A stretch of DNA of 27,490 bases from a virus, in the IMG/VR virus record IMGVR_UViG_3300048065_000515, positions 1 to 27,490 of that record; one strand, written 5' to 3'. The notes under the pieces were generated by a model. It ran no database searches. It had not been told where the DNA came from and saw only the letters and a list, made by a program, of their open reading frames with translations. The position numbers and the translations under genes are program-made. Shown here piece by piece: positions 10,252 to 26,811 of the stretch. Positions within the stretch are counted from its first letter, which is position 1; the number at the start of each line of letters is the position of its first letter.

Positions 10252-13200
10252 GCAAGTTGTGGTCGCCTTACAATCTCTATAACAATATTATAGGTTGGTG
10301 GGATAGTAGAGATTTATTCGCTAATAATGGTCTGTCTTATCCCATAGGCTCTGGCACTAATGATGATGTTAGTTTAGCAAAAACAGATGTTATAAAAGAT
10401 AAATCAATTTCTCGGTCTGATTTTACTGGTGAATCAAACGCTCTTTGGGATACGCTTTATTATCAAATAAATGATGTTACTGTCACTAATGGTGGTACTG
10501 CTGGAGCTTATGGCGGTGTGGCAACTGGGTTTCTTGCAAATATTGATACTACACATATAAACCAACAGGCATTTAATGGGGATTTAGTAGGCGGTAATTG
10601 GTTAGCCCCAAGAAACCGTAGTTTTAGCCCAGTTGGAGGTTTTATTAATGCTAATTATTCTAATGATGCTATTACAAGTGTCACTAGCGCGACTAGAAGC
10701 CGCAACTGGCATATTGGTGATACATTTTATGCAGACTTAGGAACTGGCACATCAAACAATGTAATATTGACTGTTTCAAGTGTTAGGGAATATGGCGGTT
10801 TGATTGGTACTGCGACTGGAACATTTTCCACAGCCGCTAGGTCTGGTTTTCCAAGCAATTTTAGATTATTTGTGATGTGCGTTTTAACTGATGATGGCGG
10901 CATATCTGACCTTGATGAGGCTTTTTTAGAGTTTGTTGATCAAGACGGCTCTAATCATATTGAGTTAATTTATGAAGTACAAGCTGGATCTTTAGGAAAA
11001 TACACCGCAAAAACTGCAATGAAAGTTAAGTATAAAGATTCAGGCGGAACAGACAGAGAAAGCTCTGGAGATTCAACAGTCACCCCAAATCAGCACACTT
11101 TATTTGAGTTTGAATTTAACTCTACTAGCTCTTTTGTTTCTGAGTTCTTAAACGGCACTGCGACAGATTCAACTGCAACCACTACAGCCATACAATTTCC
11201 TACAAATTATAAAATTAAGATGGGGAATGGTACAAGGTTTGAATTTTTTGAAATGATAATGATTGATGAAGATGTAAGGCATTTAACCCTTGCAGAACGA
11301 CAGTTGTATCACGGGTATTTTGCACATAAATATGACGATACTGGGCTTGTTTTAGTTGATGGCCACCCCTACAAGACAGTAGCACCAGCGGCTGATGGTT
11401 ATTTATATGGTGGGGCGCATAAATTAAACCCTAGAGAGCCATTGCAGATGGTCAAGATGTATCTTGATGAGTGCGATAATGTATTTGGGGTAGTTTCTGG
11501 CTTATCAAATTGCAACGCTACGCCAAGCACAGGCAATGAGTGCTATAACACTAAACATACTTGTTTAAATTTAAGCAAATACAGAGTAAATACTAACGGA
11601 AAAAAAGAGTTAACATTCTCTCAAGAGGTTGGAAATAACCTTGCTGGATTTGAGCCAACCGCTCACCCTGCTCTAATCTCTGTTACATCTGCGCCAAGTG
11701 AAATACAGCCAACTAAGGGCGTTTCTGTTAGGTCAAACATTACTATTAAACTAAGAGATTTTATCTCTGATGACAAAGGCATTGACCCCTACTTTTCTAC
11801 TCGCAGTATTATTGCTTTGGAAAACGGAACATTCTTTCAGAAGTTATTAGCTAGAAACCCACATTACTACGGTAGGCCAATAGAAATTTATGACGGCTTT
11901 TTTGATTATGATGGTACTCCGCAGGTACACGATGGCAAAAGAGAATACATCATTGAGAGCATTCATTTAGACAATGATATTTGCACAATAAAATGCAAAG
12001 ATCCTATGTCCCTTGCTGATGATTTAAAATCAAAAGTGCCAGTCCCTAGTGATTTTTCATTTAAGATTGATGTAACTACTGGCACAAAAAACAATGAAGT
12101 TTTGACTATTGACGATGCAGACGCTACAGCAGAACAACTGCAAGCCGAGTTTGGTACTAGCGGGTTTGTCAGGGTCAACGAAGAAATAATGGGTTATACA
12201 AGGTCTGCTGGCGATGCAAGTATGGACTTTCACGAAAGCTCAAGGGGTGATTGGGGTACAACAGAAGCCTCTCATAGTGCGGGTGATACAGTCCAAAAAT
12301 GCCTAGCGTTTGGGACTTATAACGATTCTGCTACTGGTTCAACTATTGACGATGTGGCCTATGAGATATTTGTAAACGGTGCTGGTGTACCTGCTGGTGC
12401 AATCAATAAAACCACAGGCGGTGAGTATAGCTGGGCAGATGAAAAAACAAACTGGCTATCTACATTCAAGATAAATACGATTATCAGTGAGCCAGAAGAA
12501 GCAAACAAGCTAGTCAACCAGCTAGGCTCTATGGTCGGCACTAACTTTTTCTACGATGATTTAGCCTCAAAGATTGTTATGAGAGCCGAGATGCCCATAG
12601 TAAATCCGCTAACTATTCAAACTATTACAGATGTAGATATAGTTGAAGATTCGTTGAAGATAATGAATTCAGAAAAGGACAGGATTAGTCGAGTTTATTA
12701 TTACTACAATCGAAAGAATGGCGTTGAAGACAGGAATAAAAAGAAATCATTTAGAAATCTATACGTTAATATTGATGTGGATTCTGAAGGTTCTGAGGAA
12801 TATGCAAAGCAATCAAACAAGGTAATTTATGGCTGGGGTGTAATTGATTCATCTACCGCAACAAGTGTCTCACAAAGGATTTTAAACAGATTTAAAAATG
12901 TACCTAAAACAGTATCATTTAAACTAGATGTTGGCTCTAAGCAAATTAAAACAGGCGATCATTTCTATTTACAAACTAAATCAATAGTAAATCTTGATGG
13001 CGGTATAACTGCGCGTACTGAAATGCAGTGCATTTATAGTAAATTTAATGATAAGCTACAAGTCTACGAAATTAAGGCTCAACAGTTTAGATTTACAGGT
13101 GCTAACTTTGGGCAAGTTACAGCCAATGTTTTATCTATCACTGCGGCTGGTAGTGGTTATGCTGTAGATAATACAATGACATTTACAGGCGGTAGTAACA

Positions 13201-17047: not shown

Positions 17048-18056
17048 CACAGGGGTTTATTATCCGCAATCAATTACGTTTGGCGCGTTAATCGACCCAA
17101 ACATAAATCCTCTTCGCCCTGCTGGTGAGTTTGTTGAGATACAAGAGCTCGTCAACACTGCTGCATACATTAACACTCAGGTTAGCGATGCTCAGGCCAG
17201 CGTTATAGAGATGTCTATGGGCGTTCCTCAATCTGCCGGGTCAGTTGAAGGGCTTGTAGTCCCGGTTGCTGGGCGTACAGATTCTCACAAGATAGACCTT
17301 TTAGAAGTCGCGTACTACAATCAATCCATCCTAGATACAGCAAACGCTAATTACTATTCAGCGGAACACTTACTGGTAGATTCTTATGAAGAAAATATGG
17401 ATCAAATGGAAGCGGCTATCGAAATGTTTTCAGGCGCGGCAACTGAAATTTCAAAGGCAGAGGCAATATATACAGAGGCTATTAATGCTCAAACTGATGA
17501 TGAGCGTATACAGTTACAGAATTATATACGGGCAAATGACGTTCAGCTCAACCAAGAAACAGTCCAAACATTTAACCAATCGTTGGATATTATTGAAAAT
17601 AAAGCACAAGCGGCTACTGCGAGCCTATGGGCATCTCAAGATTCAGCAACACTTGCAATGATCAACTATGACGGTATCGCTACACTATCCAACATAACTA
17701 ATTCTACGGTCGCGTATGATGCTTGGACTGACCAAATGACAATTACTTGGGACAATGCAACCGATACAGTGTTGCAAGGCGTATTCTTCAACAACGATGC
17801 CAATATAGGGTGGACACAAGCCACTACAGAGGTCTATGACGGCTTTTACGGTGATACCCCTCCTGTTAGCATCAATCAAATGTATTCAGCGTACAGCTAT
17901 GGTACAGGGGAAACTGTGGCCTCTATGGGGTCTGGTTATCAAGTAAACGCTAAGCTGTATGATCCTGTACAATTAGTTCAGGATGTATTAGATGTTCAGA
18001 ATGAAACGCCTACTACACAATTTAACAATCAAAACGGTAATTTAGGCGGTCTGTAA
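16980..18056 (+). CDS. Sec-exported helical protein of unknown function
   Basis: I chose the ATG at 16980 because GGAG lies six bases upstream. It gives MAMKRKILAVSLLASVSA followed by QLSG, a compact signal peptide with a VSA cleavage site. An ATG at 16968 would add four residues and lacks a site. The mature part is acidic, and residues about 40-230 are helical and coiled-coil-like (AYINTQVSDAQASVIEM, EENMDQMEAAIEMF, LNQETVQTFNQSLDIIENKAQ). The second half is rich in Trp/Tyr/Asp beta sequence. It overlaps the previous exported gene by 68 bp and the next by 1 bp. The function is unknown; it may be a periplasmic or surface protein, or a virion protein. Confidence 0.55.
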   Translation: MAMKRKILAVSLLASVSAQLSGDTGVYYPQSITFGALIDPNINPLRPAGEFVEIQELVNTAAYINTQVSDAQASVIEMSMGVPQSAGSVEGLVVPVAGRTDSHKIDLLEVAYYNQSILDTANANYYSAEHLLVDSYEENMDQMEAAIEMFSGAATEISKAEAIYTEAINAQTDDERIQLQNYIRANDVQLNQETVQTFNQSLDIIENKAQAATASLWASQDSATLAMINYDGIATLSNITNSTVAYDAWTDQMTITWDNATDTVLQGVFFNNDANIGWTQATTEVYDGFYGDTPPVSINQMYSAYSYGTGETVASMGSGYQVNAKLYDPVQLVQDVLDVQNETPTTQFNNQNGNLGGL

Positions 18057-18998: not shown

Positions 18999-20153
18999 AT
19001 GGATCAGAATTTTTTAAAGTTTTGTGAGACAGAAAGACAAAAAGAAATACTATTAGCAAGACTTGACAGCAAGACCAACAAAGAAGCAGCCGATAAACTA
19101 GGAATTGGTGTAAGAAATGTCCAATTTGCACTTGCTAGAGTAAGGAAAAATGCGGCTAAGCAGGGTTACTCACCTGATCACGATATGCATAATCCTGTTC
19201 CTGATGGCTTTGTCGCTAAAGGTGTCTCTACTTTGTACGATGATGTGGGTAATGTTAAAGTACAATGGGTAAAAAGTAGTCTTAAGAAGCAAGATGAGCT
19301 AGACCAAATACAATCAGCGTTAGAAACATTCATATCCAGCCACGAAAAAAAATCTCCTAAAATACCTAAACCCAAGAAAAATCTTAAAAATCAAGAATTA
19401 GCTGTAGTCAATATTGGCGATGCTCACTTTGGTATGCTGGCTCACGATGACATATCGGGCGAAAACTATGACTGTAAAATAGCCGCCCAGAGACATAAAG
19501 ATGTATTTCTGAGATTGATGAATAATGTGCCTAGTTGCGACACAATCGTTATAAATCAACTGGGCGACTACTATCACGCAGACACTTACACAGGAACAAC
19601 CACTAAAGGCACTCCTTTGGACACTGACGGGCGTTTAGAGCACGTTTTCCTGATAGGGCTTGAAGTTATGTCCTTTATTGTAGAAGAGTCTCTGAAGCGA
19701 TTTAACAAGGTTGTGGTGCGTCACTGTCGTGGGAATCACGATGCGATAACCTCTATGGCCTTGAAAGCCCAGCAACAAGCCTACTGGCGTAACAATAAAA
19801 GGGTTACAATTGAAATGTCACCTGCGGTATGCTGGGTATATCAGCACGGTAAAACGTCTTTTATGGTTACTCACGGTGATACGATAAAACACGGTAAAAT
19901 GGCTGAATACTTTGCTGCGAGATACCCTGAAGTGTGGGGGGCAAGCACCCATCGATACTGCTGGCACGGCCATATCCATAGTAAGAAGATTAGTCAGGAG
20001 ACTTACGGTCAGACAGTAACAGAATCGTTCGCAGGTTTACCACCGGCAGATGCTTGGCACGATAGCTCTGGCTATGTATCTGGACAATCAATGTGCTTAC
20101 TTGTGCTTGATAAAGATAAAGGTGAGGTGAGGCGATCAACGGAGCGCGTATAA
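18999..20153 (+). CDS. HTH-metallophosphoesterase fusion (calcineurin-like nuclease/phosphatase)
   Basis: This 384-aa protein has an N-terminal helix-turn-helix at residues about 10-50 (TERQKEILLARL, KEAADKLGIGVRNVQFALARVRK), similar to sigma-region-4/LuxR or TerS-like HTHs. A Lys-rich linker follows. The complete calcineurin-like metal-binding set is GDAH (140-143), GD (189-190) with H193, GNHD (245-248), THGD (291-294) and GHIH (324-327). All five blocks are intact, so two-metal phosphoesterase activity is expected. The substrate could be DNA (Mre11/SbcD-like) or a nucleotide. It is placed on the late strand, away from the recombination genes. Its stop overlaps the next start. Confidence 0.82.
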   Translation: MDQNFLKFCETERQKEILLARLDSKTNKEAADKLGIGVRNVQFALARVRKNAAKQGYSPDHDMHNPVPDGFVAKGVSTLYDDVGNVKVQWVKSSLKKQDELDQIQSALETFISSHEKKSPKIPKPKKNLKNQELAVVNIGDAHFGMLAHDDISGENYDCKIAAQRHKDVFLRLMNNVPSCDTIVINQLGDYYHADTYTGTTTKGTPLDTDGRLEHVFLIGLEVMSFIVEESLKRFNKVVVRHCRGNHDAITSMALKAQQQAYWRNNKRVTIEMSPAVCWVYQHGKTSFMVTHGDTIKHGKMAEYFAARYPEVWGASTHRYCWHGHIHSKKISQETYGQTVTESFAGLPPADAWHDSSGYVSGQSMCLLVLDKDKGEVRRSTERV

Positions 20154-21352: not shown

Positions 21353-21769
21353 TTGATAGATTTAAAAAGACTCAAGGCGCAGCTTGTGCGCCACGAAGGA
21401 ATGGTATTGACCACCTACGAGTGTACAGCCGGGAAAACCACGCTGGGCGTTGGAAGAAATGTCCAAGAGGTCGGGATAACCGAGGCTGAAGCGATGCATC
21501 TTCTTTCCAATGATATAGCCAGAGTCGCTGGTGAGTGCTACGGGGCATTTTCTTGGTTTAAAGACCTCGATGAGCTCCGAAAAGAGGCAGTGATTAATAT
21601 GGTCTTTAATCTTGGCCTGACTCGATTCAAGCAGTTCAAGAAAACCATATCTTACATTGAAGCCGGAGAGTTTCAGCTCGCGGGTGCTGAAGCCCTGGAC
21701 TCTAAGTGGGCTAAGGACGTTGGTAATCGCGCTGTAGAGGTTGCTAATCAACTGGCTGGAAATCCATAA
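21353..21769 (+). CDS. Endolysin, T4-type lysozyme (GH24)
   Basis: This 138-aa muramidase is numbered from the TTG at 21353, which I prefer because GGGAG lies 8 bases upstream. An in-frame TTG at 21338 lacks a site. The catalytic triad spacing E15-x8-C24-x5-T30 (HEG, ECTAGKTTLGVGRN) aligns with T4 E11-D20-T26, with Cys at the Asp position as in many phage lysozymes. No signal or SAR segment is present, so export needs the holin. Its 3' end overlaps the convergent nuclease gene by 26 bp. No terminator is visible after it. Confidence 0.85.
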   Translation: MIDLKRLKAQLVRHEGMVLTTYECTAGKTTLGVGRNVQEVGITEAEAMHLLSNDIARVAGECYGAFSWFKDLDELRKEAVINMVFNLGLTRFKQFKKTISYIEAGEFQLAGAEALDSKWAKDVGNRAVEVANQLAGNP

Positions 21770-22181
21770 AGGTAAATTGTTCTATGCTGTAGTGAGCCAT
21801 AGGTTGGATGTCATCGGGTCTTCCTCGATCAGTCCGACCTTCTACAGTGACCTTTATTGGTTCTTGCTGCAAATCAACCCATCCAATACTGTCATCCCAC
21901 TCAACCAAAAAGATTGACTGATAGCCTAGTGCGTAGAGCTCATTAGCTTTAATGATCTTATTAAATGGGATTATCGATGTTGGGTATTTGTTAACTGGGT
22001 TGAATCGCTTCTTTACTTCCACAAATCCTACTATCTTGCCTTTACGCAGCATTGCAAAGTCCAAGACATAATGCATCGGTATCTTCTTTGCTTCACAGTT
22101 CCAAGCCCGGCAGATATAAGAAATTATTCTATCTTCATTAGGGTCTGGCTTATAGTGCCTAGCGTACTTTGTATCGCTCAT
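21744..22181 (-). CDS. PD-(D/E)XK nuclease-like protein
   Basis: This is a 145-aa protein with D41 in YVLDFAMLRKGKIVGFVEVKKR and E55-V-K57 fourteen residues later. That is the classical PD-(D/E)XK arrangement with a hairpin between, as in phage resolvase, VRR-NUC-like and restriction-type nucleases. An upstream helix (EDRIISYICRAW) precedes the core. GGGAG lies just upstream of the ATG. It overlaps the small upstream gene by 21 bp and the convergent lysozyme by 26 bp. As the last gene of the early strand it may trim recombination intermediates or degrade DNA. The substrate is unknown. Confidence 0.65.
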   Translation of the reverse strand: MSDTKYARHYKPDPNEDRIISYICRAWNCEAKKIPMHYVLDFAMLRKGKIVGFVEVKKRFNPVNKYPTSIIPFNKIIKANELYALGYQSIFLVEWDDSIGWVDLQQEPIKVTVEGRTDRGRPDDIQPMAHYSIEQFTFMDFQPVD

Positions 22182-22303: not shown

Positions 22304-22870
22304 TTATAAAAACATATCTATTGGGTCATATTTATAAATGTTTATTTTTCTTTTACTGGTTTGCTTCCAAGTATTTTTATGTGAAATACCCATTCGTGAT
22401 GAAACTTTAACCCATCCCATAGCCCGCCAAAAAATATTACTTTCTAAGTCGTCAGCGCACCCGCAACTAAAACCTAAAGTATAGACGCTTTTTCCATACT
22501 CTATGACTGCATCTAATAATAATCGCCCTCTTAACAGTTTTCTTGCGTCTAACTGAAGACAAATTTGCGCTATTTTCCCCTGCCTACTTACTGAATTAAC
22601 TTTACCGAAACTTGCGAGGCAAAATCCAACTAAATCTCCATTTGATTCGATAATAAAAAGTTTATCATTGCAAACATCCGACCACCGCTTGCCTTTTTTG
22701 ACCCCAGTGATTGCTGACTCATAGGCCATTTTCGGTATAAAGCCTAATGCTTTGTTTTCTTTTTTAGATAAATCAACTATATACTTTAAATCTTCTAAGC
22801 AAGCAAATCTTACATCGCCCATATCAGATGTTTTTAAAAATAAACTGTCTTCAAGCACGATATTCAGCAT
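22304..22870 (-). CDS. GNAT-like acetyltransferase
   Basis: This is a 188-aa protein with VRFACLEDLKYIVDLSKK (residues 20-37), the usual GNAT start. IAQICLQLDARKLLRGRLLL (100-119) is comparable to motif A, with a basic/Gly loop that can bind acetyl-CoA pyrophosphate. FSCGCADDLESNIFWRAMGW and HKNTWKQTSKRKINIY complete a pattern I associate with a small phage-encoded GNAT family. The acetylated target is unknown; it could be a host protein or a small molecule. The start at 22870 overlaps the upstream small gene by 20 bp. A shorter start at residue 17 (MGDVRF) cannot be excluded, since neither start has a good ribosome site. Confidence 0.62.
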   Translation of the reverse strand: MLNIVLEDSLFLKTSDMGDVRFACLEDLKYIVDLSKKENKALGFIPKMAYESAITGVKKGKRWSDVCNDKLFIIESNGDLVGFCLASFGKVNSVSRQGKIAQICLQLDARKLLRGRLLLDAVIEYGKSVYTLGFSCGCADDLESNIFWRAMGWVKVSSRMGISHKNTWKQTSKRKINIYKYDPIDMFL

Positions 22871-26157: not shown

Positions 26158-26811
26158 TTAAATTCCATCAGCCCACGATGTATCAGTCAGCCGGGTAAAG
26201 GCATCCTTTTTCTTCTTCGGCCTACCTTCATTAAACTTAACAGCATTAACATACCAAGTACGCCAAGCCGCAGCATAGTTCTTAATTCTGTTGTTAGGTT
26301 TAGATTCGTGGTGGGCTGTAAATAACAACCATTGCTCATCAGCATCGAGCTCGGCTGTCTTCTTAAGCCAATAAGTAGTTGCAGCCACCCTTAACTCATC
26401 CGATAGCCCTTTATTTAATAATTGGTTATTTACTTGTTTATTTAATTGTTTATTCCCCTCTAATGGTTGCAGGGGTAGGGGTGCAATGGCTGCAGGGGTG
26501 CGGTCTAATGGTTGCAGGGGTGCAACTATTGCAGGGGTGTCAGGAATAACTGCCTGATACCTGTTAGTCGTCCCGGAATGACCACCCTCAGTGCGCTCGA
26601 TAGCAAGCCACCCAGCGTCTTCTAAGGACTTTAAATGCTTCCTTACTGTTTGCTCGGATAGACCTGTTTCTTTGCTTATACGCCCAATAGAAGGCCAGCA
26701 AAGGTCTCTCTTCGCATTCATATAGGTTCTTAAGTAGCTTGCAACGTATTTAGAGTTGCTCGGCAGTTCCGCTATCCAAATGGCTTCCAGCCAATCTATT
26801 AACTTGTTCAT
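26158..26811 (-). CDS. Replication initiator-like winged-helix protein
   Basis: Residues 17-90 of this 217-aa protein form a winged HTH (YLRTYMNAKRDLCWPSIGRIS, KETGLSEQTVRKHLKSLEDAG, then GGHSGTTNRY), the HTH_36-type N-terminus of phage replication proteins such as O- and DnaD-like initiators. A Pro/Leu linker (APLQPLD, APLPLQPLE) and a Gln/Asn/Lys segment follow. The C-terminal domain (residues 135-217) carries NRIKNYAAAWRTWYVNA, similar to helicase-loading tails. The linker DNA contains iteron-like repeats and an AT-rich tract. AGGGGAG precedes the ATG, which lies inside the upstream gene. Confidence 0.7.
   Translation of the reverse strand: MNKLIDWLEAIWIAELPSNSKYVASYLRTYMNAKRDLCWPSIGRISKETGLSEQTVRKHLKSLEDAGWLAIERTEGGHSGTTNRYQAVIPDTPAIVAPLQPLDRTPAAIAPLPLQPLEGNKQLNKQVNNQLLNKGLSDELRVAATTYWLKKTAELDADEQWLLFTAHHESKPNNRIKNYAAAWRTWYVNAVKFNEGRPKKKKDAFTRLTDTSWADGI
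26411..26539. other. Candidate replication origin (iterons plus AT-rich tract) inside the initiator gene
   Basis: On the + strand, four copies of TTGCAGGGGT (second copy CTGCAGGGGT) start at 26467, 26490, 26512 and 26529, spaced 23, 22 and 17 bases. Three are extended on the left by AATGG. Directly left lies 26411-26454, with 5 G/C in 44 bases. Iterons beside an AT-rich unwinding tract inside the initiator gene is the lambda ori layout. Confidence 0.6.

Follow-up and report, generated by a model that had tools for sequence, protein, structure and literature searches.

We examined if a tailed phage, represented by a linear IMG/VR virus fragment, carries its origin of replication within the gene that encodes its initiator, in the manner of phage lambda. 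The fragment (27,490 bases, hereafter the window) encodes a portal protein whose nearest counterpart, at 39% identity, belongs to Oceanospirillum phage vB_OliS_GJ44. Structural genes are read rightward up to about 21.8 kb; past this point the genes run leftward and include replication and recombination functions (NinB-, ERF- and NinG-like), with minus-strand genes for a PDDEXK_14 putative endonuclease and a GNAT-type acetyltransferase (21744-22181 and 22304-22870) closing the early region. Pfam and PHROGs profiles assigned the neighbours of the initiator gene to NinG, ERF, NinB and SSB or to nothing, and in these searches neither a helicase loader P gene nor a phage DnaB gene was recognised beside the initiator in the window.

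The initiator gene (26158..26811, minus strand) encodes a 217 aa winged-helix replication initiation protein of the O-like class, matched by Pfam HTH_36 (E=1.6e-12), by phrog_270 'replication initiation protein' (7.5e-17), and also by phrog_391 and phrog_678 'O-like'. Neither this protein nor its relatives matched Pfam Phage_rep_O (PF04492), HTH_36 being found instead, and lambda O matched Phage_rep_O at 5.7e-36; phrog_678 and phrog_345 matched both lambda O and the window initiator, over the winged-helix region. The N-terminal winged-helix domain (residues 1-90; 26542..26811, minus strand), with predicted helices and a beta wing and a Pfam match over residues 15-69, is the presumed iteron-binding part. 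The C-terminal helical domain (about residues 136-217; 26158..26407, minus strand), modelled weakly as three long helices, is a candidate for contacting a helicase, and this assignment is conjecture. Residues 92-135, between the two domains, are Pro/Leu rich and then Gln/Asn/Lys rich, and show the lowest inner AlphaFold confidence (pLDDT about 30, within a model that is weak overall, mean pLDDT 53), as expected for a disordered linker. A sequence search of solved structures with the initiator returned nothing significant.

The original prediction had placed a repeat array and an AT-rich stretch in this linker, and both are found there. Four direct repeats with the sense-strand consensus ACCCCTGCAACCATTAGA, three of them close copies and one diverged, form an array at 26461-26538 inside the coding sequence. 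Iteron 4 (26461..26476, minus strand), which adjoins the AT-rich tract, is an exact consensus copy, reading ACCCCTGCAACCATTA in the sense direction and TAATGGTTGCAGGGGT on the plus strand; iteron 3 (26484..26499, minus strand; sense ACCCCTGCAGCCATTG, plus strand CAATGGCTGCAGGGGT) is read in phase 0, unlike iteron 4; iteron 2 (26506..26521, minus strand) is again exact (ACCCCTGCAACCATTA and TAATGGTTGCAGGGGT); and iteron 1 (26523..26538, minus strand; sense ACCCCTGCAATAGTTG, plus strand CAACTATTGCAGGGGT), at the far end from the AT-rich tract, has diverged most. Mismatches to YAATGGYTGCAGGGGT number 0, 0, 0 and 3 in this order; thus the description of the iterons as four near-identical copies holds for three of them, but the fourth is clearly more diverged. 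Iteron 1 lies closer to the consensus in the related contigs L033, L034, L039, L041 and L045. The iteron starts are 23, 22 and 17 bp apart, the last of these intervals falling below two helical turns. A scan of the window gave four iteron matches against 0.52 expected, a count reached in 0 of 100 shuffles. Some copies have dyad symmetry (TGCAANNNTTGCA) and others lack it, and its significance is poor, in contrast to the clear dyad of the lambda iteron. The iteron core had been called unrelated to that of lambda; the sequences do differ, the best alignment having 10 matches against a null mean of 7.8 (p=0.055). Exact iteron matches were also seen in other viral contigs, including a pYD38-B match in L023, and were set aside as chance, being without an array and without an adjacent initiator match.

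On the C-terminal-coding side of the repeats lies the AT-rich tract (26411..26454, minus strand), the presumed DNA-unwinding element, which has exactly the 5 G/C in 44 bases originally counted and is the unique lowest-GC 44-mer across the whole 27.5 kb. Within it is a 12-bp array of three units on the minus strand: unit 1 (26446..26454) and unit 2 (26434..26442), both AATAAACAA in the sense direction, and unit 3 (26422..26430), sense AATAACCAA. Unit 2 is identical in all relatives listed, and more generally the AATAAACAA 9-mers recurring every 12 bp barely change among relatives, whereas the 3-base spacers vary freely, GGG included.

Repeats within a coding sequence could be a by-product of low complexity in the linker peptide and have no function as DNA, an explanation to which the Pro/Leu and Gln/Asn/Lys composition lends some weight, as do the 12-bp AT-rich units, which are in frame and encode an NKQ protein repeat. 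The iterons behave otherwise: their spacings are not multiples of three, and they are consequently read in two phases, 0 and 2, giving different peptides (PLQPLD versus TPATIAP), and therefore do not constitute a protein repeat. When the protein was held fixed and synonymous codons were redrawn from the phage's own usage (20,000 draws), no recoded sequence contained any 9-mer more than twice, compared with one 9-mer found four times in the real sequence; the G/C content of the AT-rich tract was likewise below what its peptide requires (p=0.002). Codons were then compared among nine distinct genes, drawn from about ten viral contigs encoding a related initiator. Over the iterons and AT-rich tract, 45 of 1007 same-residue pairs (4.5%) used a different codon, the fraction being 4.7% for the iterons and 4.0% for the AT-rich tract, against 46% for the winged-helix domain and 52% for the C-terminal domain. 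This ten-fold suppression of synonymous divergence, a strongly favourable outcome for the comparison of relatives first proposed as a check, covers about codons 90-132 and nothing else in the gene. The iterons and AT-rich tract within the initiator linker are under selection as DNA, in the same order as in lambda, which bears out the earlier view that the DNA rather than the low-complexity peptide is what is selected. The by-product explanation is refuted for the iterons by frames, recoding and synonymous divergence, and for the element as a whole we consider it exceedingly improbable.

The arrangement persists among relatives. The 23/22(/17) spacing is kept in most of the ten related contigs (60-90% protein identity), and the repeats with their spacing are conserved as DNA as far as relatives with about 60-70% protein identity. 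Every relative examined has kept the iteron that adjoins the AT-rich tract; it is the one full iteron left in L005, L006 has two, and L007 and L004 have three. A 90% identical relative, G001 (L058, L059; 33,497 bp), was closed through an identical 99-bp end overlap to 33,398 bp, and its three strong iteron matches all lie inside the initiator gene. A search of bacterial genomes for close relatives gave none that were useful. In a 32,222-bp contig (L041, G008), the iterons and AT-rich tract are intact and the initiator frame is broken by frameshifts, which may represent assembly error or decay. L004 also encodes, at 11624-12394, a protein matching the queuine tRNA-ribosyltransferase family (phrog_887).

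Suppressed synonymous change could instead reflect RNA structure within the initiator mRNA, and the sense strand does fold slightly better than shuffled sequences (z=-2.15, with 4 of 200 shuffles as good). The conserved element is nevertheless an array of direct repeats plus an AT-rich tract, and although upstream copies have been lost in L005 and L006, both still have the proximal copies and the tract; we regard an RNA-level explanation as very improbable. It is also conceivable that the iterons are an operator through which the winged-helix protein, or another regulator, controls its own operon, the AT-rich tract being incidental. Winged-helix proteins are often regulators, and in the profile searches several generic regulator families matched the initiator weakly; but the array is located within the gene, some 270-350 nt in, and not at any promoter that was recognised, synonymous sites of the AT-rich tract are just as strongly conserved, and the gene belongs to replication-initiation families. 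An operator in place of an origin is accordingly judged improbable, and regulation could coexist with origin function.

We conclude, with a probability of about 0.9, that the site is a phage replication origin of the lambda type, lying within the gene for the initiator that acts on it. By analogy with lambda, the winged-helix domain would bind the iterons, probably with the greatest importance for the copies closest to the AT-rich tract, and the wrapped initiator-iteron complex would strain and melt the AT-rich tract. The C-terminal domain might then recruit a DnaB-type helicase of the host, directly or via a host loader; a host enzyme is the likely recruit, since neither a helicase nor a P-like loader of the phage was recognised near the gene or across the early region of the closed relative G001. 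The linker, disordered and composed of Pro/Leu and Gln/Asn/Lys stretches, would be the protein outcome of a conserved DNA sequence. Counted against an origin were the single full iteron of L005 and the two of L006, the weak or absent dyad symmetry, and a GC skew minimum lying off the site. DnaA boxes, sought near the array with up to one mismatch in the window and in G001, gave no match. Cumulative skew was examined in the closed G001 and in GJ44, the window being a fragment. In G001 a local minimum at 18,001 lies 1.2 kb from the iterons (at 19,221), near the flip in gene direction, and with detrending the minimum falls at 11,094; in GJ44 the minimum and the initiator are separated by about 3.5 kb. 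In both genomes the skew tracks gene orientation, and it therefore neither supports nor refutes the origin.

The lambda origin, within initiator gene O, has four iterons of roughly 18-20 bp followed by an AT-rich tract (PMC7466680), and the iterons and AT-rich tract annotated in gene O have the same relative place as those of the window, after the DNA-binding domain and in the same gene-sense order. The label lambda-type is apt for this layout, although the protein is HTH_36 rather than Phage_rep_O. The two systems differ further in spacing (23/22/17 in the window, 20/24/23 in lambda), in the weaker dyad symmetry of the window repeats, and in that no P gene was recognised in the window clade. 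Where PMC7466680 cites Wickner and McKenney, the two lambda iterons adjoining the AT-rich tract are said to suffice in vitro, and the always-kept iteron beside the tract in our relatives parallels this. Lambda gene O and gene 18 of phages P22 and L each contain distinct iterons inside the initiator coding region (PMC8022706); the window iterons differ in sequence from those of P22 and L, and these two phages encode their own DnaB-type helicase whereas the window clade apparently does not. The layout itself is therefore already known, and what is new here is strong evidence for conservation of the DNA sequence as such, and not just of the protein. The lambda plan of an origin in the initiator linker also reaches uncultivated marine phages with initiators beyond the classical O family, and its iterons and AT-rich tract are recognisable from sequence alone by out-of-frame repeats and by a local loss of synonymous change. 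Both tests could locate replication origins on many unannotated phage genomes that have initiators of this class.

Five Vibrio phages (pYD38-B, 381E49-1, 1.079.O, 1.054.O and PVA1) have an HTH_36 winged helix about 50% identical to that of the window, linker repeats, and then an AT-rich tract in which 12-bp units of a similar AATAAACAA type recur; their iterons are of an unrelated AGCTAAAC type, and their C-terminal part is unlike that of the window protein. In 1.054.O a DnaB-family (COG0305) gene adjoins the initiator. Plasmid RK2 oriV resembles the window in having iterons beside an AT-rich tract of repeated units, but its TrfA belongs to another initiator family, and oriV is not located inside the initiator gene. 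The occurrence of a AATAAACAA-type unit after unrelated iterons, in the Vibrio phages and in L096, L108 and L189, supports a sequence-specific reading of the tract, with the limit that the last three were found through a search for the AATAAACAA motif itself. We suggest tentatively, as a possible though doubtful reading, that the AT-rich tract is a sequence-specific AATAAACAA element read single-stranded by the initiator or by a host factor, that it has persisted across phages in which the iterons and their recognition helix changed, and that the melting element is thus a module evolving separately from the iterons; the near-constant 9-mers between freely varying spacers also favour this. TrfA of RK2 recognises its 13-mers specifically on one strand (PMC4081077). 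Most unselected O-like genes are without a AATAAACAA unit, a control scan for the reversed pattern likewise picked up one or two initiators, and the in-frame NKQ repeat together with AT pressure could explain part of the pattern. Many matches of the 12-bp unit with Y positions proved to be CAAA microsatellites and were rejected.

Linker repeats of their own sequence are present not only in the Vibrio phages but also in Sphingopyxis VSN-002, Vibrio pA2SJ1, Pseudomonas U7 and GJ44. Iterons resembling those of the window are ACCCCCGCA in Sphingopyxis VSN-002 and pA2SJ1, and ACCCTGCAA in GJ44. Similarity of the recognition helix correlated weakly with similarity of the iterons (Mantel r=0.27, p=0.018, n=13 phages, with iteron consensuses picked by hand). 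The uncultivated L090, L096, L108, L145, L189 and L266 have initiator-like genes in which a linker repeat family, different in each, precedes an AT-rich tract, and the L090 repeats are near-perfect dyads (GGTGACACCCATGTCACC). In GJ44 (L344:290-390), a gene annotated as 'DNA replication protein' has a pair of ACCCTGCAAGGAT repeats at a distance of 23 bp and then an AT-rich stretch, an unannotated candidate origin.
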